Shown here piece by piece: positions 6,701-31,376 of a DNA stretch of 64,000 nucleotides. The notes under the pieces are model-generated. The model was given only the letters and a program-made list of their open reading frames with translations. It made no database searches and was not told the DNA's origin. The DNA is from Fomitopsis serialis. Taxonomy: Eukaryota > Basidiomycota > Agaricomycetes > Polyporales > Fomitopsidaceae. Both the position numbers and the translations under genes were made by a program. How positions within the stretch are numbered: the stretch's first letter is position 1; every line of letters starts with the position of its first letter. Location of the stretch: contig NW_025954963.1 in assembly GCF_022376445.1 (NCBI RefSeq), positions 1,426,001 to 1,490,000 on the forward strand, read 5' to 3'.

Positions 6701-6706
6701 AATGGA

Positions 6707-6997: not shown

Positions 6998-7108
6998 AGC
7001 CCACCGCGAGGGTCAAACTCGCAGCCTTCAGATTGCATTGCCTACGGTCGGGATATGCTCTGTCCATGCATAAGAGTCTGACGCTCTATCCGATTAAGCT
7101 AAGCGGGC
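6998..7108 (-). tRNA. Second tRNA-Lys (CTT) with 37-nt intron, possibly degenerate
   Basis: Reading the minus str­and, a cloverleaf nearly identical to the copy at 6582 is present: anticodon CTT (7072-7074 complement), the same anticodon and T stems, and an intron at 7034-7070 in the same position but with unrelated sequence. Departures weaken it. The T loop reads TTTGACC, so the invariant C56 that contacts the D loop is replaced. The last acceptor pair is T-G and the D stem has a T-G pair. Only a short T4 run follows the 3' end. It may be an active isodecoder or a decaying duplicate. It lies in inverted orientation about 300 bases from the first copy and immediately upstream of the asparaginyl-tRNA synthetase gene. 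Confidence 0.8.
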
Positions 7109-7248
7109 TTCGCAGTGACAAGCTCAGGTCCATTGAGTGCTTACCTAATATCCATGAACGACGTACACACATACTTACCCGATTCAGATGACGCATCTCC
7201 GACGCGTTCGTTGACTGCAAGCCATCGAGTCGCCCGACGTCGGAGAGG

Positions 7249-8819
7249 ATGCTCGGACGCATTCCTTCCGGATCCCTGCTACCCCCTACGATACGCCAGC
7301 TTCTCGGCGGCACAACGAGCAATGCGCGCGTGCAGGTGAACGGCTGGATCAAGTCGGTGCGGCGCCAGAAGAACATCACGTTCGCCGTCATCTCGGACGG
7401 CAGCTCAGCAAAGGGCATCCAAGCGGTCATCCAGAATGGTTCTCTGGCGAAAGCGTGCGTGCTAGTGGCTTGGAGGGCTGTGCAGCTTGTGAGCTGACTC
7501 GGTAGTGTATAACGCGTGTCGTCAAGGTTGACGAACGGCGCGAGCGTGAGGCTGGGAGGTACTCTTGCGGACAGTCCCGGAAAGGGTCAGGACAAGGAGT
7601 TGCGTGTCGAGGATGTCGAGGTAGTGGGCGAATGTGATCCTGCGGTGCGTAGCTAGTCCGGCGTTCTCCATGCGCGACTGAGCGGCGCGCGACTAGGCAT
7701 ACCCAATCCAAAAGCAAGCCCTGTCTACCGAGTATCTACGGGACAACTGCCATCTCCGAGCGCGAACGAACACAATCGCCGAGATGCTCAGGCTCCGCGC
7801 CACGACCTCCGATGTGCTCCAGCACTTCTTCAACGTGAGCGTATCGCGAGGTGTGCAGGCGAATGTAACTCATTGACAGGCAGTCATTAGGCTTCTGCTA
7901 CGTGCACACGCCGATCACCACCTCCAGCGACTGCGAGGGTGCCGGAGAAACCTTCCGCATTACCCCTCCCGCCCCCTCCGAGCCAGCCACGGAAGATAAC
8001 AGGCCTTCAGAATTTTTCGGACACCCCGCGTACCTCACCGTCTCGTCTCAGCTTCATCTCGAGGCACTCGCGACGGCCCTGTCGAGGGTGTACACACTCT
8101 CACCGTGTTTCCGCGCAGAACGCTCACTGACGAACCGGCATCTCTCGGAGTTCTGGATGCTCGAGGCGGAGTGGGCGTTTACCCAGTCCGTGAACGACGT
8201 CTGCAGCGTCGTCGAAGGCGCCGTGAAAGACGTCCTTGACAAGACGCAGTCCCATGCACAAGCGTTCGCGAACGACGCCGGTCGCTCGCGGATTCTGGAG
8301 TACCTCCAAACAGCAAGCTCCACCCCGGTCTGGACGAGGCTGAGCTATAGCGACGCGGTCACGGAGCTGGCGAAATATCAAGCGTCGGCGCGGAGGTTCC
8401 AGTTCGAGCCAGCGTGGGGCAAGCCGCTGCAGAGCGAGCACGAGCGGTGGCTCGCGGAGGAGCTCGTCAAGGGCCCGGTGTTCGTGACGGACTATCCCGC
8501 GTCGCTCAAGCCATTCTACATGCGCCTCAACGACGACGGGAAGACCGTCGCGTGCTTCGACCTTCTCGTCCCGCACCTCGGCGAGCTCGTCGGCGGCTCG
8601 CTGCGCGAAGAACGGGGTGACCTGCTGGATAAGGCGTTGGAAAATCACCAGCTAGACAAGACGCAGTACGGGTGGTATTCTGAGCTGAGGAAGTATGGAG
8701 GGGCTCCGCATGGTGGGTTTGGGCTTGGCTTCGAGCGTCTCATTAGCTGGATATCGGGCATCGAGAATGTACGGGAGTGCATTGCGATGCCGAGGTGGGC
8801 GGGGAGGATGCTGTTGTAG
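7249..8819 (+). CDS. Asparaginyl-tRNA synthetase, mitochondrial type
   Basis: Four exons, 7249..7454, 7527..7644, 7697..7834 and 7884..8819, give 465 residues with all splice phases agreeing. The enzyme charges tRNA-Asn with asparagine. An OB-fold anticodon-binding domain (about residues 25-125, VQVNGWIKSVRRQKNITFAV) precedes a class II catalytic core. Motif 2 is FRAERS near residues 230-235, followed by HLSEFWMLEAEW. Motif 3, GFGLGFERL, lies near residues 432-440. The arrangement is that of AsnRS rather than LysRS, and the single short copy without a long N-terminal extension resembles the mitochondrial paralogue (yeast SLM5). The start at 7249 is the only ATG after an in-frame stop at 7189-7191 and gives a plausible short basic, hydrophobic presequence. 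Confidence 0.9.
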
Positions 8820-10124: not shown

Positions 10125-10973
10125 TCCAAGTGGAAACTCAGTGCGTACTTGTCACAGCTGGCCGCGTAGAGTCAGCTGCAGTGCGGTCCAATTAGTAGAC
10201 GCCAAAGATCAAAGTGGCGGAGACCAATAGCAATACCGCTGCGGCGCGCGGAGGGTGTTCCTTCCCGGACCAGCCATATACAATCGATGCATGACAGTGG
10301 GTACATAACTCTCTGCAGCGCATATCTGTGCTCAGTGGCAGGACTCATGGTGAACTGCGGCCAGCATATGAACTTGGCTCGGGCCTATGTGCCCTCCTCG
10401 TCAATTGAAGAGGCCGCTAACCGTGGTCTATCACTACTAGGGCATATATGTGGCCGTGACGGATTTCTCTCATGCTTGGCAGTCCCACGTCACTCCTCTG
10501 CATGGAACTTGCCCATTGTATCTCTTATAACGAGCTACAATAGGGTAGCGTCCTGCTTGTATTTGACTTCTGTCGTACCAATCGTGAGTTCTGTCCAGTA
10601 CGGCGTTCTGTACGCGAGCCTTGGTAATGCATGCTGGTTTACGGGTCACGGAAGCAGGGATACATTGCAGTGTACTTAGCGTGATTGGTGCTTCATTCGC
10701 TGCAAATGTGGCGCAGTTACTGCCATCTACCCCCTGGTGAGTTGTTACCCTCTGATGTCCGTTAGCGACTCACCAGGGGATATATGCTGACAGTATGCTC
10801 GCCTATTAGTGGCATTGTCGAATAGGAAGCCTGCTTTCCCCGAAACTTGTCGGCTGTGTCTCAGGTCCAGGCACACCAGGCTAGTCTGAGTCTGCCATTA
10901 TTGCGTAATGAGAGATTTAATGCAGGCAATATAGGCATAAGTTTGTATGATATCCTTGTGGTGAGCACGGAGT
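10125..10973. other. Intergenic region left of a repeat-bounded block
   Basis: No supported gene. An open frame of 130 residues at 10287-10679 has no recognisable motif. The stretch shows patchy inverted similarity to about 13.75-14.1 kb, for example CCTGGTGAG near 10733 against its complement near 14055. Confidence 0.35.
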
Positions 10974-11239
10974 GATCATACATAAACTCCAGTACTTACC
11001 TGCAGCTGTTTTCATACATGAGCTGCCACTCGCTCATGTAAAAGCGAGGCGCCGTCATGTATGAACGAGGCGCCGTCGGTCGTTACCTGATATGGCAGGT
11101 ACCCCGGGCTAGCCCGGCCCCTTTGTCCCCGGCGGGGCGGTACCACTGACGCGCGATGCGAGGCTACCCCATATGGATGCACATCGGGGTCAGCGCATCT
11201 GAGATCAGGTACGATCTCGGATCCCCTGCGCCGCCGCCT

Positions 11240-12900: not shown

Positions 12901-13740
12901 CCGTCAACAAGGCACTTCGCACTGCGAGCGAGCCCTTGAATAGGGCAGGCGATGCGCGGGAGGCTGTGGGTGACCGAGGACGACACTTGGAGAATTGCAG
13001 GGACTCCTGTGGGCGATGGGTGCGGGTGGGGCAGCAACGTGCGGGGCAGCGATTGGTGGGACGGCGGCGGCGATGAACAGGTGGGCGACGGACAGAGACA
13101 TGGTAGTGCTGAGGGCATAGACGATGTTGCGTTGTAGAGATCCTCGTCCACTTGTTCCAGATGTACCATACGTAGTCGATATCTTAACTGAGTACAGAAT
13201 TTGTGTTGAATCGCAGCATTTGTTGGCGCTTCAAACATACCAAATCGGGATGGCCACTTCATGACTTCATTTTCGGCGCAAATCACAGCACTGAGACTTG
13301 AATTGATAAGCAAACAAATGAATAAAAGGCCACAATATGTGTCATGGGGCGCGACATGTGCAGTGCATATGTCGTGCAGCACAACATACGTGCCGTAATA
13401 CGCGCTGTATTTGTTCGGATCCCGATATACTGACTATTCAGGCACTGTGCTTACATAATGAGTCGCGGCTATTTACGGTGCCGTACCTAGCTCTAATACT
13501 AGGACGTGTCAGATCAAGCAGATCGCAAATCGCGATTGCACGCGCCCGATGCCCTCGCAGCGCGCAACAGCTCCTATTTAGGGCTGCCGCCGCCACCGCA
13601 AGCTGCCGCTGACAGTGGATCACCCGGGCTGTCCCTAAAGGGCAGTCGCCCTTTCGGGTAGTGAGCGAGACGCCGGCTCCAGTTATTACAGCACCTTTAT
13701 ACATGAAGGCTTGCTGTGAGTTCTGGAGTTTATGTATGAT

Positions 13741-14356
13741 CCATTTGTGCTAAGCACAGGGATTCATACATGATTCTGCCAGCATCTGGTGTTTAATGAC
13801 CGTCCGAATCCTAGCAGTGAGTCTCAACCATACCCATTAGTACTGCTGTCACTGACGCCTATATACGAGGCTCCGTTTCCGGAACTGGTGCAAACCCTAG
13901 GTGGTAACCCTCACGTTAGCGGTGAATTGACCGAGTCTCCTACGTTCCAGTAGTCAATATCAGGCCATGGCCAATCGTCATGATCCATTCACTGTTGGAG
14001 ATCAGAGACTCGCGCACAGCTGCCCTATGGGATTGCATGTTGCATTGGTAAGCGGCTCACCAGGCGCCATCGGCGTTCGCTGACACGGTAAGAAAGCCCC
14101 TGACTCTCGGTGTATGGCCATTTGCAGTGGACTTGTCAGTGCGGTATCCATTTTTCACACGTGTGGCTTCATCTGATGTGTCCCGGACCACTCTGGCAGA
14201 TATGCGACACGCGTCGAAAGGACGTGGGTATCTCTACGATGACTACGTCTCCGTATCTCAGGGGACGTGCGCTAGCACTCGGCAACTCATATATATATGA
14301 AGTGAGTTGATGCCCATGAACCTTGAACATTGACTCCGGGTCCTCCGGCTAGAATC
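13741..14356. other. Spacer before the disrupted membrane-protein gene
   Basis: No gene recognised. Includes the promoter region of the gene beginning at 14357. Confidence 0.35.
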
Positions 14357-15698
14357 ATGTCGAACTCGACGATCTTCATTTCGTGGAAAGCTGATCCTGA
14401 TTACCGTGGTACATTCGACATCCTATCCAGCTGTCCAGCACCCTCGGCATCTGCGTCTGGTCTGCTGTGCATGACGACATATCTGACCACCGGCGGTGGT
14501 ATTTGAGGTTCATCAGGAAGTTGGGTTGGCTCGTCGTTGGGCTCTTGGCGCCGGAATTCCTGCTATACATCGCGGTGGGCCAATTTGCTCAAGCAAGATC
14601 GATATTGAAGGAGGCCGAACGAACGTTCACCACAGAGTCGCCTTCACCATCGTGGTTTCAGGAATTGATAGTCAGATCTAGGTTCGTAAGGAAGTTGTTC
14701 GGAATTCCGGTCAGTACAGTACTTATCCCGATGCGACCGATGCTCATTCTAGCGAGACAAATAGGAGTCTAATCCGGGTTCTCCCAATGAGGATGCTGTT
14801 CCTCTGGTTCGGAGCGCGAGGGACGCAGTGAAGACCTTTCGTAGGCATCGGTGGACGATGACACATGCGTTCTACGCTACCATGGGCGGGTTCAGACTCG
14901 ACGTTGTCGACGAATCGGGTAGCCACTATCTACCAGCCTGGCAATCAGAGGGCATCATATCGCCTTTCGGAATCCTGTTCCTCATGAAGCATGAGCCCAC
15001 GCTCATCCCTGATATCTCTGTCGCAGACATATGGGACAAGAGCAAAGCAGACGGACTGGCGAAAGCGCTGCTCATATGGCAGCTGCTGTGGTTCATCACC
15101 AACGTCGGGAACCGCCTCGGGCATGGCTTGCCCCTCAGCCTCCTGGAGGTGACGACTATCAGCCACGGATTATGCACATTGTGGACGTATGTGTTGTGGT
15201 GGAGCAAGCCCCTAGGAGTGCGGGAAGCGACGGTCATCACGGGAGCGTCACAACTCGGGGCTTGGATGACTATGTTGACTCCTCTACACAGGTACATGAT
15301 CGAAGGCCTCATGTGCTTCCGTCGTGATCCTGAAATTGACAGCCTCGACGCTATTCAAGTGAAGGATCTGCTGGAAGCTGCATGTGAGTGCATGGCATCC
15401 AGTGCGGCACCAGGTGAGCGCACTCTGTCCATAAGTATCATCATGATCGATTTTCCTGACGATGCTGCATTTGTCTTCCAGAGCTCCTTATAGAGATCCG
15501 TAGAGAAATATCGGTCTATCACGATATCGATCACGCTGCCCGAGCGCGGTGCTACTTGACATGGTATCAGCTCCTTCTCGAAAGACATACACACGAGATG
15601 AAGGGTAGTAGGAATACCACCAGTTCTGATCGTATCATGATGTGCTCTGGTCACTGAGGAACTATTGGCACAGATTCATGGAATTTTAAGCTGCTAGT
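14357..15698 (+). pseudogene. Multipass membrane protein, 5' portion of a disrupted gene
   Basis: The N-terminal two thirds of a protein family common in Agaricomycetes and not functionally characterised. Hallmarks are DYRGTFDILSSC, GWLVVGLLAPEFLLYIAVG, WTMTHAFYATMGGF, DIWDKSKADGLAKALLIWQ and TYVLWWSKPLGV. The family has an extracellular N-terminus and several helices. There is a one-base break near 14425-14432 between ILSSC and STLGICVWSAV. An intron near 14720-14762 and another at about 15413-15480 (GTGAGC...TTCCAG) are likely. The frame then continues ELLIEIRREISVY and meets a TGA at 15654-15656. A LINE begins at 15711, directly after the 12-bp target site ACAAAGCAAGGA. The rest of the gene is found at 20273-19834 (minus strand) and at 24789-25200. 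Confidence 0.8.
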
Positions 15699-15710
15699 AC
15701 AAAGCAAGGA
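15699..15710 (+). repeat. LINE target-site duplication, left copy
   Basis: ACAAAGCAAGGA directly precedes the LINE. Its partner lies, reverse-complemented, at 20274-20285 immediately after the LINE A-rich tail. Confidence 0.85.
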
Positions 15711-16428
15711 TCCGACGAATTGCCAAACCAACACGAGGTGTGGCATTCCGCTATGTCAAACAACTCTATCTATCCATCCTTGTCCCGCGAATGCTATATG
15801 CCGCCGAAGTGTGGCTTACTCCCACCTACGACGTCCCGGGCAAGTCTCGTCGCCATGGCTCTGTCGGCGCAATCCAACGCCTGTCACGCATACAGCGACA
15901 GGCCGCACTGTTGATCACAGGTGCCATGCGAACCACCGCATCAGACGTCCTCGACGCACATGCGAACCTTCTCCCGTTCGATCTTCTTGTTGACCGTGTT
16001 ACGATACAGGCTGCTACTAGAATACTTACTCTACCTCCCTCTCACCCACTCTACGATAGAATTCAGGATGCGCGTATCCCCGTGACTAGTCACAAATCCC
16101 CCTCCACGAACTCACTGAAGCCCTCCGACTAGACAGATGTCGGAATGCCGAGCAGATCCAGGCGACTCGCCAGCCCCCAGGATGGGCACCGCGACACAAG
16201 ACAGAGATTGCGAAGGACAAAGATGCAGCGGAAGAGGAGGACCAAGCTTGGCAAGAGAAAGACATCCCAGCGATCTACACAGACGGCTCCGAAATCGAGG
16301 GCGGCGTTGGAGCATCCGCCATACTCTTCATCCCTAACGACCCGCAGCTACACATCCTCCGGTACCACCTCGGATCTGCAAAGCGACACACTGTGTACGA
16401 GGCCGAGATCGTCGGACTCATCATGGGA
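15711..16428 (+). mobile_element. Non-LTR retrotransposon (LINE), 5' part: RT C-terminus and start of RNase H
   Basis: A 5'-truncated LINE. The first part encodes the C-terminal region of a reverse-transcriptase polyprotein (YLSILVPRMLYAAEVW, then IQRLSRIQRQAALLITGAMR). This runs into a ribonuclease H domain beginning IYTDGSEIEGGVGASA with the catalytic YTDGS aspartate and a second acidic site in YEAEIVGLIMG. A one-base break sits in a C5 run at about 16098-16102. At 16428 the frame is cut inside RNase H by a TIR element. It continues without loss of any residue at 21384 on the minus strand. Confidence 0.88.
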
Positions 16429-19400
16429 CATCAGGAAAAAAGCTCCCTCCGAATTATGCTATATGGTCAGGAATTCTGAATAAAACGTAGAAGCTCAGTA
16501 ATGTCGGATCATTCTGATGTCAGTCGCAATAATACGTCGAATGCTTATTTCCGTGCACGTCACTCCAGCATGAACCGATGATTATGCATTCATTCGCCAG
16601 CATTCAGAGCCCAACTATAAGCATCTCAGCATTATCATGGTAAAATGAGATACCAAGTACTTGACAGGAATGCTAATCGGACGCAAATGAGTGATCACGA
16701 CCTAACAATATGTATTCGCTGAGCAATACTATACATTGGGTCTGCTTCGCATCACTGTGCATACTGAATCAGTGCCTGCGTCAGCCGTATCGAAAGCGCC
16801 ATTCACGGGAGGGCACCATGTCGATGCACGCACCGGTTCACGAGGACGCATCTCCGCGGCCTGTCCACTGCACGGAGCGTCGCTGTCCGCTGCCGCTCCT
16901 CCGCCCTCATCGCAATCCGAGGCGTTGCCGCACCCACGCCCACGGTCGTCCTGAATAGAAGCCCGCAGCTCCCGCCGTGCCCAAGGCCCGCTGCCTCACG
17001 CATCCAACTCACCGAAAGAGACCATGTCAAGCCTAGAGAGCGTCGCGACAGCACTCACCTCGCACGTCCTCGCACCGCCGGCGACGGTTGCGTCCTCAAG
17101 AAGCTTGCGTAGGAGGCGGGCACGGATCGGTCGACGAGTCTGGGCGAGTCTGCACGGCGGACGAGGAAGCGAACACCGCGCTCGCTCGCTCAATGCGATC
17201 AGCTTCGCGTGACGAAAAGAAGAACAAATTTGGTGCAGTGGGCTGGACCCAGGAGCAAGTAGGGCCAAGGGAGCAGCGGTGGGTGGGCAGGCGAGCGGGT
17301 GGGCTGGTAGGTGGGCAAGCGGGTGGACAAGCGGGCGGACAAGCGGGCGGACCAGTGGGCGGACAAGCGGGCGGACCAGTGGGCGGACAAGCGAGCAGGC
17401 ACGTGGGAGGAAGGGAGCATGGGCGGGCATGCAGGCACATGGCTGGGCCGGAGGATAGGCAAGGGAGCACGGGCGAGCGCGAGTGAGTGGGCAGACGAGC
17501 AGGCGCACGGGTGGGTGCGTTATTAGGCACACGGACAAGCGGGTAAGCTGGAGAGCGGGCAAGCAGCTGAGCAGATGAGCAAGAGAAAGACAGCGCGGGA
17601 AAGACAGAGCGTGCCAGTGAGCAAGACAGAACGTGGATGGGTGGGCAGGCAAGCAAGTGCTGGTGCCGAGGGTAATGCTGGTGGACATGAACACCGTCGT
17701 CAGCGAAAATTCACGGCATAGCCATTCACTCACCTGCTGAATGTTTGACTCGTTGTCTGCCTGTCCTCTCTCACGTTACTCATCTGCCTGTCCACCTGTT
17801 CACTCGTACGCTCGCTCTTTCGCTCTCACGCGTCATCCATCCTCACGCATCCGTTCACTCGCCTGCCCCCATACTCACCCTCTCTTCTTACCATGCGCCC
17901 AAGGCTCCGAATAGCCTAGCTGACCGCTCGTTCAGCGTACCCCGCCGCCACACGCGATTGTCGTAGCTGACGCCGCCCGGCGTTCAATGTCTGGGTCGAG
18001 CTGGAGAGTTTGCAGTGGGAGTGGGTCATGACGCGTGGAAAGATGATGGTGTAGCAGACGACGAACCCCGCAAAACAAAAAGAAGCCAGACATGGTTGAG
18101 TTAACGCTACGAGTAGATGAGCGGTAAGCAGCGAGACGCAAAAGACACGACGGCATCGTGCGCCAGAGTTCAGTTACTGCTTGCCCTAAACTGAATCTCG
18201 ATCGAGTTCTGCCACGTCACTCCGCTGGCTTCACTTGCTACGTCGCCGCCGCCTTTGCGTCGTGTCGTCGTCCTCCTGGCACACTTTCCTTGCCAGCCAT
18301 ATCCTATCTCTGCATTGTCTATGTCCCCCGTGTCGCTCGTGTGGTTTGTCTTGCATACTCACTCATTCACTATCACACATCTGACCGTGTTTGGTTCATC
18401 TCCTGCTCGCCCACTCAGCAGCTCTTGCTCGCCCACGCATCAGATCTTGCTGACTCGCGTCCTTGCCTCGCCCGCGCTTGCCGCCCTCTTGCTGGTTCAA
18501 ACGTTCACTTGCCATTGGTATCTCGCCCGCTCTTGCCTGCCCGCTCCCTTATTAACCTTCCGTCAGCTTATTCATATGCTAGCTCGCTCGCCAGCGCCCG
18601 CCGTTCGCTCATTTGCCATCTGACTCGCCACCTCAATGTCCCCCTCGTCTGCCACCTTGCTTGTCCGCCCTCGCGTTTGCCATGCCCCGCTGAACCGTGT
18701 CCTATCTGCTGTTGACCGTGCCGGCCATTTCGTTCGCCCGTTATCTTGTCATCCCTCCTGCCCGCCGTCTCGCACCCGCCGACTTGCCCTCTCGTGCCTG
18801 CGCATTTGCTTTCTCGTGCCCGCCCGGCGCCCACTGGCACTGTCTTTTCGCGCCCGCCCACTGTCTGTTCGTGTTCGCCCACTGTCTTTTCGCGCCCGCC
18901 TGCTTGCACTTTCGTGTCCACCCATTGGCTCTCTTGCGTCCACACGCCCGCTCTGTTGTGTCCGCGCCGTGTTCAAACATTCTTGTGTGTGCGCGCGTGC
19001 GCATCCTCCGCGCTCGCTTCCAGAATCCACAGCTGCTCGCTCTCGGCTTCTTGACTGCGCACCTGCCTGCTGCCTCATGACAAACATTGATCTGTGTGCG
19101 TACCTTCTCGCCGTCTATGACAGCCAGCTAACATACATTCACATGGAGACTATTGCCCCTGTCACCTGCAACCTACGCGCCCATGCTCATGGACACACCA
19201 TCTCACTCTACACCCACACACCCGACTCCGTCTTGCCCACAGTCTGTCTCGCACGCCCCCTCCCGCCCATGCTCTCGTCTGCTCGGCCGGCTGGCTACCT
19301 CCCCATTCGTGCGATCACCCACGCGATTGGTCACTCGTCCATCCGCCGACTTGCCTGCGGACCCGCTTAGTGACCCGTCGACCCGCGGACCCACTGACAC

Positions 19401-19833
19401 TGTTACTCTAGTCATATTTTACTGCCTGTGCTCGTCATCTATCTCCCTCCCTAGTACCTATCTCATCTGCTCGTGGCCTCGGACCTCTCATAATGCATCA
19501 CAGATTCTCACATCGGACTCGTAGTAGTATATGACATGCACAACAATGCATTAAATGTTTTTTTCTAATCACTTTGCGTGAACGAACATTAGAGTGAATT
19601 TTCATCGAATGTCCCGAGAACGGCATAGAAGCCACGACTTATTGCGTGAACATGCCACAGAAATTCACGAGAACATTGTAATTACTCGAGTATTACTGAG
19701 TATTCGTACACGGACCCATGGGGACCACGGAATATGGTCTGTTATTGGATTAGGAAGATTAATGCTGTTTATCTTCTATTCCTACGAATTTGCCTCTATT
19801 CTTCCGCATTCAGGGGAAGGTTTTTTCCTGATG
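16429..19833 (+). mobile_element. TIR element copy 1, non-autonomous, 3.4 kb
   Basis: Bounded by CATCAGGAAAAAAGC... at the left and ...GGTTTTTTCCTGATG at the right. The ends are about 27-bp imperfect terminal inverted repeats with the outermost 13 bases identical. The interior is GC-rich, low in complexity and strongly strand-skewed (for example 17290-17420). It has no transposase-like domain in any frame, so it must be moved in trans. After reconstruction of its target the duplication is only 2 bp (GA). It is 3405 bp long and matches copy 2 at 21385-24788 in inverse. The only differences I noticed are one base substitution near 18387 and one extra A near 18075. Confidence 0.85.
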
Positions 19834-20273
19834 ATGTTGCGAAGGGGATGATAAAAGGGACAGATGTCGCGGAAAAGACGGCGTCGCCATAGCGGTCAAC
19901 TGCTCGTGCGGCAAGCTCCCATCTTCGTAGACATGTCGGGTCAACGGCACTGGGATGGTGGCTTTGGAACATGGACCACGGAAGCGCTGAAGGAAAGACA
20001 TAATTCGTCAGCAGCCGAGAGATGGTTTTCGACAGCCAACCCCACGACGTCCATATCGAGCGATCGCGATCCGGCTTCGCATGTGCATAGTCAAGGACTC
20101 TGGGTGCCGGCAGGAATACGACAGACTTGTAACATGACCTGAGAGTGTCGTAAGCGATCGTATAAGCCTCGGATGTGTTCGCTGCAAGGGTAGCATCCCG
20201 CCCGATAGGTAAGGCAAGGATGTCGCCGTCCAACGTGATGGAGAATGATAACATGTTTTCTTGCAACGAGAGT
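19834..20273 (-). pseudogene. Multipass membrane protein, central portion in inverted orientation
   Basis: On the minus strand, directly after the LINE target-site duplication, the membrane-protein gene continues: SKELSLQENMLSFSITLDGD, then LRSCYKSVVFLPAPRVLDYA, then WELAARAVDRYGDAVFSATS and PFIIPFAT at the boundary with the TIR element. It should join the plus-strand piece at 24789 (LQSWVGTIRVGP...). The reading direction is opposite to the 5' and 3' portions of the same gene, which is the key sign that this segment has been flipped. Confidence 0.75.
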
Positions 20274-20285
20274 TCCTTGCTTTGT
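20274..20285 (-). repeat. LINE target-site duplication, right copy (inverted)
   Basis: Reverse complement of ACAAAGCAAGGA, abutting the LINE tail. A true duplication would be in the same orientation as the copy at 15699-15710. It is not, because the segment is inverted. Confidence 0.85.
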
Positions 20286-21384
20286 TTTTTTTTGTTTGTA
20301 ATCCCGTTTATCGTCATTTGAGGGCGAAGCCCTATGTAGACTCGAACAATACACATGTACACTACTGAGGTTCGATTCGATGGTGTCTAGCTGATCATTG
20401 GCTCAGTGCGCCTCCGTAGAGGTGACTTCGCCGGGTGGGACAAATTATCGTAGGGGTTTATGGTGCATGTACAGTAAGGGTCATTAGTGTGTGTTGTAGC
20501 GTCTATGTACAGTCCGTGGGTGGTCCATTTGGAATGAGATGAAATGAAACGAGACAGAGTAGTGGGAGTGTCAGGGATGCGCGTGTGAGGTCGTCAGTCA
20601 TTGTCCTCCGTGTCTGGTAATTCAAGTCCTCCGAAGATATTGTCGAAACGGCCGGTGGCGTGTATGAAGCGGAAGAGCGGCCGGATGGTGTCTGTTTGCG
20701 AGAGCAAATGTCTGAGAGATCGTGCTCGGCTTCCGATTTCGCGTCGTAGCCATGCGCGTTGTGGAGCGTATTCCGGGCACTCGAGGAAAAAGTGTTGGAC
20801 GGTCTCTCGGTGGGCTCGGCATGCGGGGCAGCGTGCTGTGTCTGATCGGCGGATGCGATGGAGGTGGTAATTGAGCGGTGCGTGTCCGGTCCGGAGTTGG
20901 ATGAGCAGGCTGGCGTGACGGCGAGGGAGGGGTGCAATGAGTTTACTGAACTTCCTCGATGGCATATCGGGATCTATGCGAGCGAGGGTCTCGAATCGAG
21001 GCGAGTCTTTCCATCGCTGGACAGCCGCAGTTTTGATTTGCTCGAGGAGATGCCTACGGATTGCGGAGATACTGGATGGGAGGGTTGAACGGAGGAGTTC
21101 GGGGAGCTCGTCTGGTGGACTGCTTTCGCCTCTAGCTGCTTTTTTGGCTTCTTCATCTGCACATTCGTTGCCGTCGACGCCACGGTGTCCTGGAACCCAA
21201 CGAAGCGTAAGTCGTGCATCGGGGTGTGTGTTATAGAGTGTGTCGATGGACTGGTGTAAGGCGTCGAGGAGATAGTGTCCGGGTTGGCGGGAGCGTGTCT
21301 GCGAAGCTCGGAGACAAGGCGTATTATCGGCGGCGCAGGATGTTTGGGCGAGTCGGTATGCGAGCCGTGTGAGCAGTTCAACTC
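20286..21384 (-). mobile_element. Non-LTR retrotransposon (LINE), 3' part: end of RNase H, zinc knuckle, 3' tail
   Basis: On the minus strand from 21384 the RNase H domain resumes with GVELLTRLAYRLAQTSC. It contains the late catalytic block LRWVPGHRGVDGNECADEEA and a CPACRAHRETVQHFFLECPE cysteine/histidine motif usual at the C-terminus of such fungal LINEs. The frame ends at 20594. The 3' untranslated part contains a small hairpin (GGGCTTCGCCC) and finishes with an A-rich tail (about 20286-20300). The element joins exactly to the part ending at 16428 when the segment is re-inverted. Confidence 0.88.
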
Positions 21385-24300
21385 CATCAGGAAAAAACCT
21401 TCCCCTGAATGCGGAAGAATAGAGGCAAATTCGTAGGAATAGAAGATAAACAGCATTAATCTTCCTAATCCAATAACAGACCATATTCCGTGGTCCCCAT
21501 GGGTCCGTGTACGAATACTCAGTAATACTCGAGTAATTACAATGTTCTCGTGAATTTCTGTGGCATGTTCACGCAATAAGTCGTGGCTTCTATGCCGTTC
21601 TCGGGACATTCGATGAAAATTCACTCTAATGTTCGTTCACGCAAAGTGATTAGAAAAAAACATTTAATGCATTGTTGTGCATGTCATATACTACTACGAG
21701 TCCGATGTGAGAATCTGTGATGCATTATGAGAGGTCCGAGGCCACGAGCAGATGAGATAGGTACTAGGGAGGGAGATAGATGACGAGCACAGGCAGTAAA
21801 ATATGACTAGAGTAACAGTGTCAGTGGGTCCGCGGGTCGACGGGTCACTAAGCGGGTCCGCAGGCAAGTCGGCGGATGGACGAGTGACCAATCGCGTGGG
21901 TGATCGCACGAATGGGGAGGTAGCCAGCCGGCCGAGCAGACGAGAGCATGGGCGGGAGGGGGCGTGCGAGACAGACTGTGGGCAAGACGGAGTCGGGTGT
22001 GTGGGTGTAGAGTGAGATGGTGTGTCCATGAGCATGGGCGCGTAGGTTGCAGGTGACAGGGGCAATAGTCTCCATGTGAATGTATGTTAGCTGGCTGTCA
22101 TAGACGGCGAGAAGGTACGCACACAGATCAATGTTTGTCATGAGGCAGCAGGCAGGTGCGCAGTCAAGAAGCCGAGAGCGAGCAGCTGTGGATTCTGGAA
22201 GCGAGCGCGGAGGATGCGCACGCGCGCACACACAAGAATGTTTGAACACGGCGCGGACACAACAGAGCGGGCGTGTGGACGCAAGAGAGCCAATGGGTGG
22301 ACACGAAAGTGCAAGCAGGCGGGCGCGAAAAGACAGTGGGCGAACACGAACAGACAGTGGGCGGGCGCGAAAAGACAGTGCCAGTGGGCGCCGGGCGGGC
22401 ACGAGAAAGCAAATGCGCAGGCACGAGAGGGCAAGTCGGCGGGTGCGAGACGGCGGGCAGGAGGGATGACAAGATAACGGGCGAACGAAATGGCCGGCAC
22501 GGTCAACAGCAGATAGGACACGGTTCAGCGGGGCATGGCAAACGCGAGGGCGGACAAGCAAGGTGGCAGACGAGGGGGACATTGAGGTGGCGAGTCAGAT
22601 GGCAAATGAGCGAACGGCGGGCGCTGGCGAGCGAGCTAGCATATGAATAAGCTGACGGAAGGTTAATAAGGGAGCGGGCAGGCAAGAGCGGGCGAGATAC
22701 CAATGGCAAGTGAACGTTTGAACCAGCAAGAGGGCGGCAAGCGCGGGCGAGGCAAGGACGCGAGTCAGCAAGATCTGATGCGTGGGCGAGCAAGAGCTGC
22801 TGAGTGGGCGAGCAGGAGATGAACCAAACGCGGTCAGATGTGTGATAGTGAATGAGTGAGTATGCAAGACAAACCACACGAGCGACACGGGGGACATAGA
22901 CAATGCAGAGATAGGATATGGCTGGCAAGGAAAGTGTGCCAGGAGGACGACGACACGACGCAAAGGCGGCGGCGACGTAGCAAGTGAAGCCAGCGGAGTG
23001 ACGTGGCAGAACTCGATCGAGATTCAGTTTAGGGCAAGCAGTAACTGAACTCTGGCGCACGATGCCGTCGTGTCTTTTGCGTCTCGCTGCTTACCGCTCA
23101 TCTACTCGTAGCGTTAACTCAACCATGTCTGGCTTCTTTTTGTTTGCGGGGTTCGTCGTCTGCTACACCATCATCTTTCCACGCGTCATGACCCACTCCC
23201 ACTGCAAACTCTCCAGCTCGACCCAGACATTGAACGCCGGGCGGCGTCAGCTACGACAATCGCGTGTGGCGGCGGGGTACGCTGAACGAGCGGTCAGCTA
23301 GGCTATTCGGAGCCTTGGGCGCATGGTAAGAAGAGAGGGTGAGTATGGGGGCAGGCGAGTGAACGGATGCGTGAGGATGGATGACGCGTGAGAGCGAAAG
23401 AGCGAGCGTACGAGTGAACAGGTGGACAGGCAGATGAGTAACGTGAGAGAGGACAGGCAGACAACGAGTCAAACATTCAGCAGGTGAGTGAATGGCTATG
23501 CCGTGAATTTTCGCTGACGACGGTGTTCATGTCCACCAGCATTACCCTCGGCACCAGCACTTGCTTGCCTGCCCACCCATCCACGTTCTGTCTTGCTCAC
23601 TGGCACGCTCTGTCTTTCCCGCGCTGTCTTTCTCTTGCTCATCTGCTCAGCTGCTTGCCCGCTCTCCAGCTTACCCGCTTGTCCGTGTGCCTAATAACGC
23701 ACCCACCCGTGCGCCTGCTCGTCTGCCCACTCACTCGCGCTCGCCCGTGCTCCCTTGCCTATCCTCCGGCCCAGCCATGTGCCTGCATGCCCGCCCATGC
23801 TCCCTTCCTCCCACGTGCCTGCTCGCTTGTCCGCCCACTGGTCCGCCCGCTTGTCCGCCCACTGGTCCGCCCGCTTGTCCGCCCGCTTGTCCACCCGCTT
23901 GCCCACCTACCAGCCCACCCGCTCGCCTGCCCACCCACCGCTGCTCCCTTGGCCCTACTTGCTCCTGGGTCCAGCCCACTGCACCAAATTTGTTCTTCTT
24001 TTCGTCACGCGAAGCTGATCGCATTGAGCGAGCGAGCGCGGTGTTCGCTTCCTCGTCCGCCGTGCAGACTCGCCCAGACTCGTCGACCGATCCGTGCCCG
24101 CCTCCTACGCAAGCTTCTTGAGGACGCAACCGTCGCCGGCGGTGCGAGGACGTGCGAGGTGAGTGCTGTCGCGACGCTCTCTAGGCTTGACATGGTCTCT
24201 TTCGGTGAGTTGGATGCGTGAGGCAGCGGGCCTTGGGCACGGCGGGAGCTGCGGGCTTCTATTCAGGACGACCGTGGGCGTGGGTGCGGCAACGCCTCGG

Positions 24301-24788
24301 ATTGCGATGAGGGCGGAGGAGCGGCAGCGGACAGCGACGCTCCGTGCAGTGGACAGGCCGCGGAGATGCGTCCTCGTGAACCGGTGCGTGCATCGACATG
24401 GTGCCCTCCCGTGAATGGCGCTTTCGATACGGCTGACGCAGGCACTGATTCAGTATGCACAGTGATGCGAAGCAGACCCAATGTATAGTATTGCTCAGCG
24501 AATACATATTGTTAGGTCGTGATCACTCATTTGCGTCCGATTAGCATTCCTGTCAAGTACTTGGTATCTCATTTTACCATGATAATGCTGAGATGCTTAT
24601 AGTTGGGCTCTGAATGCTGGCGAATGAATGCATAATCATCGGTTCATGCTGGAGTGACGTGCACGGAAATAAGCATTCGACGTATTATTGCGACTGACAT
24701 CAGAATGATCCGACATTACTGAGCTTCTACGTTTTATTCAGAATTCCTGACCATATAGCATAATTCGGAGGGAGCTTTTTTCCTGATG
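21385..24788 (-). mobile_element. TIR element copy 2, inverted, 3.4 kb
   Basis: The inverse of copy 1, 3404 bp long, with the same terminal repeats (CATCAGGAAAAAACC at 21385, TTTTTTCCTGATG ending at 24788). It interrupts the membrane-protein gene: on restoration the flanks give ...FIIPFAT joined to LQSWVG..., with a 2-bp duplication AT. It has no coding capacity that I trust; long frames such as repeated VRPLVRPL result from low complexity. Confidence 0.85.
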
Positions 24789-25200
24789 ATTGCAGTCATG
24801 GGTTGGGACCATCCGAGTCGGGCCAGCCGACCATCGAATTGTCTTTCCCCTGACGATGTTCGCTACCCTCTTCTGTGCCACCTACGGCATGCCCCACCTG
24901 CTAGGGTGGCACACATCCTTCCCGACCGACCTGGAAGGGTTCTTGTGGCGTGCTGCCACACTCACAGTAACCGGGACGGCGTGCGTGGCCGGATCCATGG
25001 TCCTGCTAGCGAGCTACATCACCAAGCGCGTCAACGGTGATATAGTTGCTGTGCAGAAAGGTGTAGTCTATGTCGCGCTCTTGGTCTATGTGACATCGAG
25101 CGGGTATTTACTTATCGGGAGTGTCAGACAGCTGTCTGCGTTGCCTCCTCGCGTATTCGACATCCCACCGTGGACGGAATCGTTGCCTCATCTCGGGTAG
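24789..25200 (+). pseudogene. Multipass membrane protein, 3' portion
   Basis: The C-terminal part of the gene that begins at 14357, open from the element border to TAG at 25198-25200. It shows the family's closing features: RIVFPLTMFATLFCATYGMP (membrane helix), FPTDLEGFLWRAATL, two further helices and a tail ending IPPWTESLPHLG. It has no start of its own and is presumably not expressed as a separate protein. Confidence 0.8.
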
Positions 25201-25710
25201 TTTGGTTTGTTTCCTTAAATACCATGTGTGTCAATTCTACTAGTTCGTTGGTGTACTTACAAGCACCAGCCCCGGCCGCCTTTACTTTACTTCGTATCGT
25301 TCTAATCTTTCTCTACTAGGTCTCTTAAAGGTCGTGCCATGTTGTCCTGGCAGTTTGTACGGAGTATGTGCCAATTAATGATACATCGACTCGAGCTTTC
25401 GATATGTATATCGATAGTACCAGCTATAGGAGCTGCCAATGACCGCCTAGGTGCGCGCACACAAAAGCCTTTCCAAAAGTGGAGCATTGGTGCCCTTATA
25501 CGGCAACTCTAGATGGACGAGCTCGACGCCACTTGCAATCGCAGGGATGACATCACCGTGACGCAGCGCTCTCCAGCATCGCCAGGCGCGTCCTCGAGCG
25601 CATATAAACCATCGAGCACGTCGGTTGACCCAGCACAACCTACCACACCGCTTGCTTCACTGCAACTCTCAGAAAACAAACTCTTCTTAACACTACATAA
25701 CATCCTCACC
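25201..25710. other. Intergenic region and promoter
   Basis: Lies between the membrane-protein remnant and the small gene at 25711. A TATA box is at 25603-25608; no gene is recognised. Confidence 0.45.
25603..25608 (+). promoter_or_regulatory. TATA box
   Basis: TATAAA about 105 bases before the ATG of the gene at 25711. Confidence 0.6.
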
Positions 25711-26091
25711 ATGGACACCACGCGCAAGGATTTCATCGAGGACCACACCACCGATGACCAGAAATTTAAGAAGCAATATCAGACTGTCGGCCGACCCCCG
25801 GTCACGGATCACGACATTAACGACGAGTATATGCGCGATCCTCCAGACGTGGGTAGTCCTCTCACTGGCAGCTCAGGGCTGGATACTGAACTGAGATGAC
25901 AGAACCTGAACATCCCTGGAGAGACGTCGACGCTGCGCAAGGCACCCGGCCTGAAGGAGGGTGCACAGGAGGTCACAGACCCCAAGCAAGACGGCGTCCT
26001 CGGTGACCAGCCCACGGGCAAAGTCCAGAAGAATGTCGCGCTAGCAGACTTAGCGAGTGAGAATACCGTCCACCCAAACTCGACGTCATGA
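25711..26091 (+). CDS. Small hydrophilic protein, unknown function
   Basis: Two exons, 25711..25848 and 25903..26091, joined by a 54-nt GTGGGT...CAG intron, give 108 residues. Without this splice the frame stops at a TGA inside the intron. The product is acidic, Pro- and Gly-containing and without membrane segments: MDTTRKDFIEDHTTDD at the start, TLRKAPGLKEGAQEV and TGKVQKNVALADLASE in the second half. The TATA box and ATG context are good. No family is recognised. Confidence 0.6.
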
Positions 26092-26830
26092 TTTGGTATC
26101 GGCGATAGGTTGGAGGGATGAAGGAAGATAGAAGGACGCTGTAACGCTGTACCATATAATCCTGTTGCAAAGGGGCTTTAGTGAGTCCAATGACATTGAA
26201 GTCACCACTGAAAGTGAGATGTGGTCTTTCCTGCATCGTAACGCGACAGAAATTGGGACGCTGACCCGACAAGACGCGGCGCAACGAACCCCACAATATT
26301 CGCCCAACAACACTGATTCCGGCGGAATCCAAGCTAGACGCTCGCGTGGCCTCAGTATTGTAACTGACCAGTATTCGACTTCGCAACCGCGCAGAACACA
26401 GTATATACCTTTCGTCGAACACACGACGTTCAGCGATTTCGGCCTGCTTGCAGTCCACATCCCAGGCAGTGCGAGCCTGTTCTCAATACGGAGTAATCCA
26501 CGCACCCTATCACCGAAACTGCCACCACTTTGCTTCGAAGCTGCTGAGGGCTTGTCTGACTGCATAGACCGCGGTCAATCATGCATCGAGAAACATTGGA
26601 ACCATTCAATGGCACAGGTCCGACACAGCCATCGAGAGTGGCTGGACGTCCACTACCCATCCTCAATGTCCTAAGCACATCGACACGAGAATGGTATAAA
26701 AGAGCAATCAACAGGAAGCCTTCAAACAAATGAATTCACACTACTTCTGCTATATCATCAGTTCACCTGCAAAAGACCATGGCACAGTATACGCACTTGG
26801 TTCTGCCATTGCAATCATCTCGACCCGCAG
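26092..26830. other. Intergenic, doubtful open frames
   Basis: Overlapping frames of 160-170 residues exist on both strands (26165-26674 plus, 25973-26458 minus). Neither has a recognisable domain or convincing start, so no gene is called. Confidence 0.35.
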
Positions 26831-28210
26831 TCAATACCTCAGGGTATCGTCTTCTCTCCGCCTACGTTCAACCTCGGCCTCGATCTCCACTGCCTCCCGA
26901 TCCAACCTCTCCCTCTCCTCCGGCCTCCCCCACTCGCCCTTATACGCCTCCGGATCCCTCAGCTTGAACCCCAGCCTCTTCTTCACCATGCCTACGTACC
27001 CCACCTCGCTCACGCCCCGCGACACCCAGTCCATGTGCTTCTCCTTCTCGCTCATCCGCGCGAGGATGTGCGCGGGTGGGCCCTGCCTGCGCCGCCGGAG
27101 CGTGCGCTTGAGCACGACGCCCGCGCGTTCGCGCTGCCGCTCCCGCGTCTTGTTCGCGATCCTCTCCCGGCGCGCCGCCATGATCTGCTCAACGAGCTTG
27201 GGAGGAAACGGCGTCCGCGCGCGCTCCTCGTCACGCGCGAGGGTCGCCGTTAACTCTTTGTCGCGGTCCAGCAGGTGTTGTACTGACAGCCCGCCAGCGT
27301 CAGCGCGCAACAAAGACAAACACCGGTAGGGCTACGCACCCCACAGCTCGTCCTTGTCCTTGAACACCCCCTCGAACGACGCGCCGTCGCGCTTAGCCAG
27401 CCGCGCGAGCTCGCTCTCGAACTTCGCCTCGCGCACGAGGTCCTCCCGGAGCTCCCGGTTCGCCACCATCTCGAGCATGCGCTGCTCGCGCTTCTTGCGG
27501 CGCTTCGCGATCAGCGCGGAGATGTGCAGCGGCTGGGGAGTCATCCGCGGGAGCGGGCCGTTCACGACGGTGGGGCGCCAGAAGACCCCCGTGAGGATGG
27601 GCCGCTTCGCGAGCTTGTCACGCCACGCCTGGATGCGCGAGGTGAGGTGAGGTGCGAGGGAGGACGGAGAAAGAAGGAGAGGACTGACGAGCATTTCTTT
27701 GGCCATTTGATCGTTCCGTGCTTTGATGCGGCGGAAGGTGACCATCCTGGCGTACCGCTCGACGATGGCCTGTGAATGCGGGTCGCCTGCTTTTGCAGCC
27801 GCGAACATGTCTCGCCACTGCAGTAATTCACTGAGCATCCCATCGAGCTCCGGAAATATATGAACGCACTTTATGATACCGTGCCAGTAGCATCCTCACC
27901 GTGCTCGCCTTCCTCAGCCCTTTCTGCTTCTGGAACAGCGTCCGTATCCTCGACCTAGCTTCGCATCAGGCCAGAGTCACTCCCAAGCCTCGATGATCGA
28001 ATGGACGGACTGCACGCACCGGACGTCGTCGCTCGGTGCGTCCCGCAGGAGCCCACGATAGAGCGACCATCGCGTAGGGATGCGGTGGGCCAGGAGGTCG
28101 CAGACTGCTGTGCGGAAGCGTGCCGGCCGCAGTGAGGAGATTATGGCAGCAATTTGAGCGCGGTGTGTGAGCGATTTGGCAGACGAGATAGAGTGGAGGG
28201 CCGTAGCCAT
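26831..28210 (-). CDS. LYR-motif (complex 1 LYR) mitochondrial protein
   Basis: Exons on the minus strand: 28210..28020, 27954..27900, 27847..27340, 27282..26831, separated by introns of 65, 52 and 57 nt with consistent phases; 401 residues. The LYR tripeptide sits at residues 50-52 in IPTRWSLYRGLLRDAP, followed by SRIRTLFQKQKGLRKAST, the pattern of the complex 1 LYR superfamily. Such proteins bind acyl carrier protein and help assemble Fe-S proteins or respiratory complexes in the mitochondrial matrix. The N-terminus is short of acids and rich in Ser, Ala and Arg, fitting a targeting peptide. The remaining 330 residues are highly basic and Arg-rich with helix-forming stretches, much longer than the roughly 100-residue classical LYR proteins. 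The specific client is unknown. Confidence 0.78.
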
Positions 28211-29879
28211 GACGGAGGATAGTAGAGCAGTTGCGGTGAAAGGCGTAGGTACTTATGAGATACCCCGGTCGCGCGACCAGAAACTGGATCGTTGACGGAT
28301 GGTCCTGGTAGTGCTTGATCGAAGAGGTCTGTCGCGTTCAGTGAGCGGTGGGTCTCGCCACTTCAAGCTTCAAGTCTTCCCGACATAGGTGTGCGAGGAC
28401 TTTGGCCGGTCAGTAGTTCAAATCGAAGAGCAGGACAGTATGGCACTCAGAGGACGTGTGTATCCGAGGCGCCCAGCAGCCACCGGCCCAGCACCGGTCC
28501 GGCTTTGTGGCTGAAACCTTAGCTCTATTTAGCGCATCCATCCACTGCGAGCACGTCGAATGCTCCTGTCATCATGATGTACCGCAAGGTAAGGGAGAGA
28601 AGAAATGCTATGAAACCCCATGTTCCCGCTCTGGTATGTGCTGGCGATAATTGCGCATCGCTCGTTCAATGCCATGTGGACAGACAGCGGTACTTAAGTG
28701 CTGGCTAGTACTTGCTCGAGGTAAGTACTGAACTATGCCAGGGTACTCACAGGCCGGGAGTCACGGTCAACTTATCTCAGGTAGGGTATCTCTTCGCGGC
28801 GCTGACAATGTTCTGTAGTGAAAGTCGTGTACGGATGTGGATCCCAGCGGCCAGTGCGCAGTATCAATCCACTCGCCCCAAACCTATCCCTGAGGCAGTC
28901 CCTGGATTTGACCTCTTTGATATCAGGGGAGTCGTATCAGGCTCGCACAAGGAAATCAAATATGAGTCCTGGCGCGCCAACGACGAGGTTCATGCAGAGA
29001 CCAGTCAATTCCAAGCGGATCCACGCGTAAAAATGGCTGGTTACGACCACACCGAGTCGCCAAGTTCAAGGTCAGTCTGTCACACGCCGACTGCGCCAAC
29101 CAAATTACTTGATGATTGCATGGACAGGTGGACGGACCCGAGCCATACTTACGCTGACGGCAGCGGGCCTCCTCAGGGTGCGCGAGGCTCGGTTGAAACG
29201 CAGCTGGAGTCAAGCCCACGACGAGAATGCGTGGCTGAAGATTGGCTGGAGATGCGGCCCTACGGCGGTTGTTCAAGATAAGCCCCAAAGACAATAGCGG
29301 AGCCCAAGAAGCCCAGGATTTAGAAGCAGTACTGCAGAATGTGCGAAAGGGTACGGCGACTCTGGATCAACAGCTGAAGTGCTGCGTCATACAAGATAGT
29401 TAGTACAGATGTATGAAACCGTGTCACGTACAGGGTATGTATCCTCTTCCTCCGCAACTCAGGTCATACCAGAGAAGCTGCGGTCTACATGAGCTTGGGC
29501 TTCGAGTGCATGATGCATGAGGCCTCATGAGGAGCTAAGCCTCAGCGGAGCGCCATAAGTACACGTGAAGCGCACGCGCAATACCATGCGTAGAGCAGAC
29601 TGCAAGTGGACCAGCCTGGCCTGTACGTTCATAACGGTAGTCTGTATCAAATTCGCATAGCAGGCCGGCATACGTGTTCAGCGGACTCCTCAACGCATCG
29701 CCTTCGACTACGATAAACGCAATCACCGCCACCAAACGTGCTGCTAGAAATGCGGCCAACCTCCAACTTGGAGAGGCGTGCTCAGAGACCGCCTCAGGGC
29801 CCTAAGCCACGCTGCATGTCTATATAACGACAGCCCGGAAGCCGACTCGTGCACCATAATCTTCACATCCACGACACTC
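28211..29879. other. Intergenic region
   Basis: About 1.7 kb between divergent genes. A 189-residue frame at 28712-29281 has no recognisable motif and is not called. The right end holds the promoter of the first coiled-coil gene, with a TATA box at 29821-29827. Confidence 0.4.
29821..29827 (+). promoter_or_regulatory. TATA box
   Basis: TATATAA about 55 bases before the ATG at 29880, which argues against a start further upstream in the same frame. Confidence 0.6.
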
Positions 29880-30944
29880 ATGTTCGCGAACCGCCAACCC
29901 ACTCGCAAGGCCACCACCACTACGCGCCCGTCCGCGCTTTCGCGCTTCGGCTCAGGCTCTGCCAAAGCCACGCCGAGCGAGGCATCCTCGTCCGCTGCGT
30001 CTTCCACCGTTGTGTCGCGCAGCCCAGCTTCCTCCGTCGCTTCCCTTACGCTCAGCGATGAACCCGCACCCACAAATGGTCGCGCGTCGCCGTCGAAGGC
30101 CTCGACCATGCCGGCGAAGCGCCAGCTCACCCGGCAGGATTCGCTTCGGCCTTCTGCACTCAAGCGATTCAGCACCAGCGCCGTCAGCTTGGTCAAAGGA
30201 CAGGGACTCACCAATGGCGCTGAGACGCCCGTGCCCGTCGCTCCTGTCTCGGGCAGCCCCACGTCGTCAGTGAGCTCACTCCCAATTGGGCCCGACCCTG
30301 GAGAGGGTGCAACGAGGACGATCGAGGAGCTGCGTACGAAGGTAAGACCAATGGGCAGTTTCGACGTTTTTCCCCATTCGCTGACGACTCATGGCTAGCT
30401 GGATGCGGCGGAGGAGGCTTTGACTACGGAGCAGAGCAGGCTAACAACACTCGAGGAGCGCATCAGGATCCTCGAAGTCGCGAAGGAGGAACATGTCCAA
30501 GAGGAAGCCACTCAGCGGGAGAGACAGCTTGCCCTGAACGCCCAACTCGACGAGCTACGGGCGCAGCTTGCGCGCTCCGAAGACGAGGTCCACAATAGAG
30601 ACCGGGAGCTAGAGGCTGCACGAGCAGAAGCCGCGCAAGGGAGAGAAGCCCAGGAGGGGATCCGGAGAGGGCTCGAGCGCGAACTCGCGGATGTGCGGTC
30701 CCAGCTGCTGGACGCACAGGAAGTGTCACGCAGGAGAGCGGACGAGCTGGAAGCAGCAAGTCGCGAGGCAGGGGAGGCGGTGAACGAAAGGAGCGCCCTG
30801 CAGCAGAAGGTCGGCGACCTCGAGGTGTCACTCAAGACGGCACTGGACAACGGCGAGCAGGAGAGGAGGCGGTTGAACGAGGAGATCGCCAAGTTGAAGG
30901 AGGATCTGAAGAAGGCACCGTCGGCCGGGTGTACCATTCAGTGA
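29880..30944 (+). CDS. Coiled-coil protein A with C-terminal CaaX box (CTIQ)
   Basis: Exons 29880..30341 and 30399..30944 give 335 residues. The N-terminal 150 residues are Ser/Pro/Thr-rich and contain the same module twice: RPSALSRFGSG...SPASSVASL and RPSALKRFSTS...SPTSSVSSL. The second exon, beginning LDAAEEAL, is an uninterrupted heptad-repeat coiled coil rich in Glu, Arg and Ala. The protein ends AGCTIQ, a CaaX box; a final Gln favours farnesylation, so membrane attachment is expected. It is a paralogue of the genes at 31377 and 33712. The N-terminal module, the intron after a Lys just before LD, and the terminal box are shared. No enzymatic domain is visible. A scaffold or membrane tether is inferred. 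Confidence 0.8.
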
Positions 30945-31376
30945 GGGCGACGCGGGGAGTGCGCGCGTGCATCGGGGGGCTATTGTTTGTACACCTGATC
31001 TTGTAACATATCGTTTATCAGAGTGTTGTATGTACGCTGTCTAAGGCCCTGGAGTGGAGATGTCTCGATATCAGCATATGAAGCCTCGCGATGAACGTAC
31101 GCACGTTGTATACCATGCACCTGTTGCACGGTATTGCATTCGCAGTATGCCCCTTGTCAGGAGGTTATTGACGGGCCTCGAACTACCCGCTGCGCGACCT
31201 TTAGCTGCTATGTGCGTGCCCGACGGTTCCTGCGCAGCTGCGAGCCCCATGAGGACCTCGTTCATAGGTCGCACCAACGCACCATACATATAGGTTTGAC
31301 GGTTCCGCACAGACCCACCTCGCATTTCATCCACAACCCAGCTCCTCCCCACCTTTCCGATTATCCACAGATTGTC
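30945..31376. other. Spacer between coiled-coil genes A and B
   Basis: Contains the A terminator region and the B promoter with a weak TATA-like ACATATAG near 31287. No gene is recognised. Confidence 0.4.

Follow-up and report, generated by a model that had tools for sequence, protein, structure and literature searches.

A reversed 1.55-kb spacer between two opposed PlavakaB-type elements in a probable membrane-protein gene of Fomitopsis serialis

The window analysed in this work is a stretch of 64,000 nucleotides from the polypore Fomitopsis serialis, a brown-rot wood decayer, and corresponds to positions 1426001-1490000 of contig C223 in an assembly of 66.2 Mb and 806 contigs. Between positions 14357 and 25200, the window carries a gene coding for a probable membrane protein, which is interrupted by a long interspersed nuclear element (LINE) and by two nearly identical 3.4-kb DNA transposons with PlavakaB-type ends, placed in opposite orientations. 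The segment lying between the two transposons is turned around relative to the rest of the gene. On the evidence of the assembled contigs, the alignments described below demonstrate three insertions, a reversed spacer, an exchange of target duplications and an allele empty of all three insertions. The features of the locus are the following (window positions).

14357-15710, plus strand: 5' part of the host gene, ending at the LINE insertion in a coding exon
15699-15710: LINE target-site duplication, copy 1, ACAAAGCAAGGA
15711-16428, plus strand: 5' part of the 5'-truncated LINE copy, with the start of the RNase H region
16427-16428: 2-bp duplication GA, outer flank of element copy 1
16429-19833, plus strand: PlavakaB-type element copy 1, 3405 bp, terminal repeat CATCAGGAAAAAA
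19834-19835: 2-bp duplication AT beside copy 1, belonging to the site of copy 2
19834-21384, minus strand: inverted spacer, 1551 bp, recognized by comparison with contigs C748 and C194
19834-20285, minus strand: middle of the host gene, reversed, containing LINE target-site duplication copy 2 at 20274-20285
20286-21384, minus strand: 3' part of the LINE copy, with the rest of RNase H, zf-RVT and the A-rich 3' end
21383-21384: 2-bp duplication, TC on the plus strand (GA on the minus strand), beside copy 2 and belonging to the site of copy 1
21385-24788, minus strand: PlavakaB-type element copy 2, 3404 bp, in opposite orientation
24789-24790: 2-bp duplication AT, outer flank of element copy 2
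24789-25200, plus strand: 3' end of the host gene

The open frame of the LINE stops at position 16428 after the residues GLIMG and resumes with VELL on the minus strand, at 21384, the far end of the spacer. The 12-bp target ACAAAGCAAGGA occurs once on each strand of the whole window, at 15699 (plus) and at 20274 (minus). These two clues and a third one, the reversed middle of the host gene, had been put forward in a sequence-only reading of the same DNA, and all three were verified with exact coordinates. The LINE character of the insertion is suggested by a zf-RVT domain, an RNase_H domain, the 12-bp target duplication, an A-rich 3' end and short 3'-end copies in the genome. In the spacer part of the element, zf-RVT was detected with 27.6 bits, barely above the cut-off of 27.5, and RNase_H with 23.9 bits, under the cut-off of 25.8; the two LINE pieces of the window that precede the cut matched no Pfam family. 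The A-rich stretch precedes the second copy of the target duplication, and the short 3'-end copies, 99% identical, are located on contigs C655, C391 and C323.

The structure of the locus was compared with contig C748 (12,409 bp), which aligns to the window over all but one base with 97.9-99.1% identity. Window 13891-15710 corresponds to C748 1-1806 on the plus strand, window 20285-19835 to C748 1795-2244 in the reversed orientation and window 24791-34952 to C748 2246-12409 on the plus strand. This contig contains neither the LINE nor any of the two transposons, and the middle of the host gene is found there in forward order. A single copy of the 12-bp LINE target is present at 1795-1806 and, at the site of copy 2, C748 has one dinucleotide carrying a one-base polymorphism. 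Since the matches span 451 to about 10,200 bases, chance is excluded as the source of this collinearity. Window positions 4000-8000 have a second copy on contig C527 with 98% identity; the assembly therefore holds two haplotypes in this region and C748 was taken as the other allele. The hypothesis of paralogous genes instead of one gene was rejected, the 242-amino-acid host piece being found only in the window and in C748, and C748 aligning end to end at about 98%. At the level of assembled contigs, these results confirm that the spacer is reversed relative to its flanks and to the other haplotype. A comparison of the junctions with a sister genome had been set beforehand as the test of this history, and the C748 allele provides it in substance, with a result in keeping with that history.

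The LINE side of the spacer was examined in the same way on contig C194, which starts with a LINE piece where window 21303-21385 runs directly into window 16428-16049 read backwards. The joined LINE halves form an open frame (...EIVGLIMGVELLTRLAYRL...) in which the transposon site is read straight through, and a single GA stands at the position of the insertion site of copy 1. No Pfam family matched this uninterrupted piece, and the evidence for the joined frame is therefore the DNA alignment and the open frame itself. For the assembled sequence, the C748 allele and the uninterrupted LINE copy show that positions 19834-21384 are inverted relative to the ancestral order, as had been proposed from the letters of the window.

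The two inverted arms of 3405 and 3404 bp differ by one indel and one substitution (99.9% identity). Both copies begin with CATCAGGAAAAAA and end with its complement. The alignment of copy 1 with a third genomic copy, on contig C266, has 72 mismatches and 63 gap columns out of 3429; when C266 is used as outgroup, each arm of the window bears one private change. The genome contains 57 exact occurrences of the 13-base end, and none of the reversed control; 20 of these exact ends belong to 10 complete elements (8 elsewhere and the 2 of the window), 2 to a pair on contig C13 described below and 35 have no exact partner. PlavakaB elements are described as bounded by CATCA..TGATG termini and by target duplications of 2 or 3 bp (PMC12730594). 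The window copies share the CATCA..TGATG ends and the 2-bp duplications, and differ from PlavakaB in that no transposase was detected in them, their class resting on the ends and on the duplication length. None of the 17 open frames of at least 90 amino acids in copy 1 reaches a Pfam cut-off, and the window copies were therefore taken as non-autonomous. A coding role for the 3.4-kb element was considered and rejected: 14 of the 17 frames have no Pfam match at E values up to 0.1, and the three others gave weak matches below cut-off, none of them to a transposase (ABC_trans_aux, E 0.0063; HEAT_ATR, 0.041; Chorion_3, 0.047). The 6.4-kb element of contig C257 (locus L044, 251-6672) has the same 13-bp ends and a TG/TG duplication, and encodes a Plavaka transposase (PF18759, E 7.9e-95), making it a possible transposase source for the family. 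Beyond the ends, blastn found no similarity between copy 1 and this element. On contig C704 (locus L060, 767-4051), a frame of 1095 residues with an aspartyl-protease domain lies about 500 bases inside a CATCAGGAAAAAA end and reaches the contig end; it may represent a retroelement nested in a Plavaka-type element.

As assembled, copy 1 is flanked by GA/AT and copy 2 by TC/AT, and both pairs are unmatched. When the inner flanks are swapped, the pairs become GA/GA and AT/AT, both matched. These 2-bp duplications had not been part of the sequence-only reading. Matching 2-bp flanks were found in 7 of the 8 other complete elements (contigs C64, C67, C157, C257, C266, C359 and C556), the test having covered complete elements with both exact ends, as distinct from the 35 unpartnered ends. 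The probability of at least 7 matches out of 8 by chance (1/16 each) is 2.8e-8. The 2-bp rule, together with the restoration of both matches by the swap, gives the pattern reported for the Galileo inversion (PMC2775673). The eighth element, on contig C39, has the unmatched flanks TC/CG, which adjoin directly in paralogous empty sites. A second recombinant was rejected in this case because both flanks meet in the paralogous copies on C46 and C39; judging from these copies, the C39 element is an insertion whose duplication is damaged or atypical. A single compound transposon of 8.4 kb in the window was also rejected, as its outer flanks GA and AT are unmatched and its interior consists of the local gene and the LINE.

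These data are compatible with the following succession of events. A 5'-truncated LINE would have inserted in a coding exon of the host gene in one haplotype of this heterokaryotic polypore, and a non-autonomous PlavakaB-type transposon would have inserted into the LINE. A second and near-identical copy, facing the other way, would have entered the gene at a point farther along, most likely through a local hop, and a crossover between the inverted 3.4-kb copies (non-allelic homologous recombination) would then have turned the 1.55-kb spacer and swapped the inner 2-bp duplications. Taken as a whole, this scenario is retained tentatively, its likelihood being judged just short of even. Three signs expected of non-allelic homologous recombination were observed: opposed copies at the breakpoints, exchanged duplications, and single targets where the elements are absent, on C748 for the site of copy 2 and in the LINE copy of C194 for that of copy 1. 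The order of events proposed in the sequence-only reading (LINE, transposon in the LINE, second transposon in the gene, inversion) holds in part: the element at the site of copy 1 is nested in the LINE and is therefore the younger of the two, except if its insertion and the inversion took place as a single event, whereas the insertion at the site of copy 2 and that of the LINE may have occurred in either order.

Several points weigh against two insertions followed by a crossover. The arms show only two differences, one private to each, which are too few to show or exclude chimerism, and chimeric copies were the decisive evidence in the Galileo study (PMC2775673). The near-identity of the copies would rather match the identical copies predicted by hybrid-element transposition, a model that needs one event and not two. 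In this model, transposase takes opposite ends of the element from the two sister chromatids and inserts the resulting hybrid about 1.5 kb away, yielding an inverted segment between the two sites, two identical opposed copies and an exchange of the old and new duplications; the original site may be that of either copy. When the joins were worked through with x as the old duplication and d as the new target, the product A-x-TE-d-(inverted segment)-x-TE-d-D (TE, transposable element) was the structure of the window, and all junctions, the GA/AT and TC/AT flanks included, were obtained in a single event. The exchanged duplications are expected under both models. Of the earlier claim that recombination between the inverted 3.4-kb copies flipped the segment, the inversion is supported, but the arrangement is predicted by crossover and by hybrid-element transposition alike, and the near-identity of the copies lends the crossover no support. 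The copies are 2 differences apart in 3405 bp and the next best copy, on C266, differs at 72 sites. According to PMC2775673, the outcome of hybrid-element transposition is strikingly similar to that of a crossover, except that the copies are identical and not chimeric, which is its only means of telling the two apart in its own case. Maize offers documented inversions made by a transposase belonging to another class (PMC8225341). The identity criterion would favour either the hybrid-element model or a crossover preceded by a local hop, without separating one from the other. No Plavaka case of hybrid-element transposition was found in the literature searched, which argues against this model. 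Hybrid-element transposition is also generally thought to be rarer than crossover between kilobase inverted repeats, and this was counted against it.

A second pair of elements with PlavakaB-type ends bears on the choice between these two mechanisms. On contig C13, two near-identical inverted elements lie at 217291-220454 and 227736-230899, 7281 bp apart. Their arms (3164 bp) were compared over 2468 bp, with 2 mismatches in the 1513 bp of the outer ends and 0 in the 955 bp of the inner ends. The left junction is collinear with the allele C213, and it is for this junction that the order relative to the allele was established. As assembled, element 2 is flanked by GA/GA, and swapping the inner flanks gives TG/TC and CG/GA, both unmatched. 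Element 1 has the unmatched flanks TG/CG, and at this place 186 bases of the allele C213 are absent from C13, which is untidy for an unflipped reading. The best C213 matches of the flanks of element 2 lie side by side on the other strand, within a repeated gene family, with identities of only 84% and 81%. A second flip on C13 was rejected on the collinearity of C213 on the left, the GA/GA flanks of element 2 and the absence of a match after swapping. The pair appears to stand in its ancestral, unflipped order, and this genome thus seems to contain the state expected ahead of a crossover. Local insertion of twin copies seems to happen here without inversion, which counts against hybrid-element transposition. 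Kilobase inverted repeats recombine readily. For this reason and because of the C13 pair, a crossover is held to be somewhat likelier than hybrid-element transposition, which we regard as possible. The near-identity of the copies, identity being given as the mark of hybrid-element transposition in PMC2775673, counts against the former and for the latter. Under hybrid-element transposition, a PlavakaB transposase would produce inversions directly, with near-identical inverted twins and exchanged 2-bp duplications as its footprint in mushroom genomes, and this reading is possible to the same degree.

Both mechanisms suppose that the assembled orientation is that of the cells, as would follow if the contig is correctly joined. 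The sequence-only reading had warned that an assembler choosing the wrong orientation between long inverted repeats would give the same picture, and this caution is fair, since the junctions between element and unique sequence are identical in both orientations and only linkage across an arm discriminates between them. If the spacer stood in the ancestral order in the cells and had been joined the wrong way by the assembler, the matched duplications obtained after the swap would simply be those expected of two ordinary insertions. No paper stating the read type of this assembly was found in the literature searched. Neoantrodia serialis is another name for the same species as Fomitopsis serialis. 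A strain of Neoantrodia serialis is mentioned as in preparation in a PacBio programme, and nothing ties it to this assembly (PMC12273965). No N is present in the window or in the 65 genomic loci examined. Furthermore, the contig keeps apart the two differences of arms that are 99.9% identical, which would imply that single reads exceeded the length of an arm; reads of this kind would orient the spacer as well. The C13 pair, in the same assembly, follows the allele order at its left junction. On balance, an assembly artefact is considered unlikely. Reads of more than 8.5 kb had been called for to settle the orientation, and this length proves unnecessary: one read across a single 3.4-kb arm and its unique flanks fixes it.

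The near-identical inverted arms, lying only 1.55 kb apart, could also recombine repeatedly, so that both orientations would coexist in the mycelium or among isolates. Such behaviour is known for a 24-kb region of yeast between 4.2-kb inverted repeats, which is found in both orientations as a result of repeated re-inversion within species; in the same system, no change was seen across about 53,800 mitoses and 950 meioses (PMC9731477). In the F. serialis assembly, no contig with the opposite orientation was found; apart from the window itself, the only match to the spacer's host part was the empty allele C748 (40 of 48 candidates scored). A continuing flip-flop at this locus is for these reasons considered very improbable.

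The host gene belongs to an uncharacterized Agaricomycete family; aligned over roughly half of the query, it is 38-45% identical to proteins from Fomes, Earliella, Phanerochaete and Moniliophthora. Each of two longer members of the family has six hydrophobic segments, whereas only one segment was found at the same threshold in the partial window model P0001 and in the C748 read-through; the gene probably encodes a membrane protein. The exon borders were read manually, and the public model P0001 has the same first intron. Besides carrying the insertions, the window allele differs from C748 in exon 1 by one base, which shifts the reading frame. The C748 allele (467 to about 2655) is interrupted by two in-frame stop codons and, further on, by a shift of frame. 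Because each allele is broken by lesions of its own, the inversion is most likely without effect of its own, and no phenotype is expected from this instance, the gene being already broken in both haplotypes.

Elsewhere in the window, an inverted repeat of 48 bp, 81% complementary, has its arms 2.7 kb apart at 10952-10999 and 13716-13763. Two tRNA genes of 119 and 111 bases, about 78% alike, are located at 6582-6700 (plus strand) and 6998-7108 (minus strand); the allele C527 carries the pair as well, and related places with a single tRNA were found on C515, C112 and other contigs.

The arrangement found in F. serialis can be compared with several known systems. It shares with Galileo of Drosophila buzzatii the two opposed copies of one DNA transposon at the breakpoints, the exchanged target duplications and the single target copies in the non-inverted chromosome (PMC2775673). 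Galileo differs by its P-superfamily membership, its 7-bp duplications and its copies shown to be chimeric, whereas the arms of the window are nearly identical (PMC2775673); moreover, the inversion described here has one of its breakpoints within a LINE, it spans only 1.55 kb and the allele used for comparison is also devoid of the LINE. The flip/flop region of Saccharomyces chromosome XIV is similar in its kilobase, near-identical inverted repeats bordering a segment found in both orientations, but its repeats are gene pairs conserved over the genus, while those of the window are insertions absent from the other haplotype and seen in one orientation (PMC9731477). In the mushroom Marasmius oreades, a hAT inversion occurred between neighbouring copies of the DNA transposon MarorhAT-10 about 2.5 kb apart, and the same paper reports a Plavaka-associated deletion (PMC9674265). 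Unlike the MarorhAT-10 case, the window has retained both copies and the entire spacer. The inversions made from reversed ends of Ac/fAc in maize also have an element at each breakpoint, but they bear new matching 8-bp duplications and have lost the segment between the elements, whereas the segment of the window is kept and flipped (PMC8225341). According to this source, a crossover between inverted elements usually leaves non-identical duplications, as in the window.

Inversions between inverted transposons with exchanged duplications are already known, and the locus of F. serialis is a neat small example of this route of chromosome rearrangement. An inversion involving PlavakaB elements may be undescribed in the literature searched, to which subscription papers did not belong. 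The case is a very clean nested one, where the insertions, the orientation of the spacer and the duplications can be read against an empty allele of the same assembly. The mechanism is narrowed by it to one question of population, the existence of a haplotype with two elements and an unflipped spacer. Finally, the exchanged 2-bp duplications suggest a simple genome-wide screen for rearrangements made by Plavaka elements in mushrooms.

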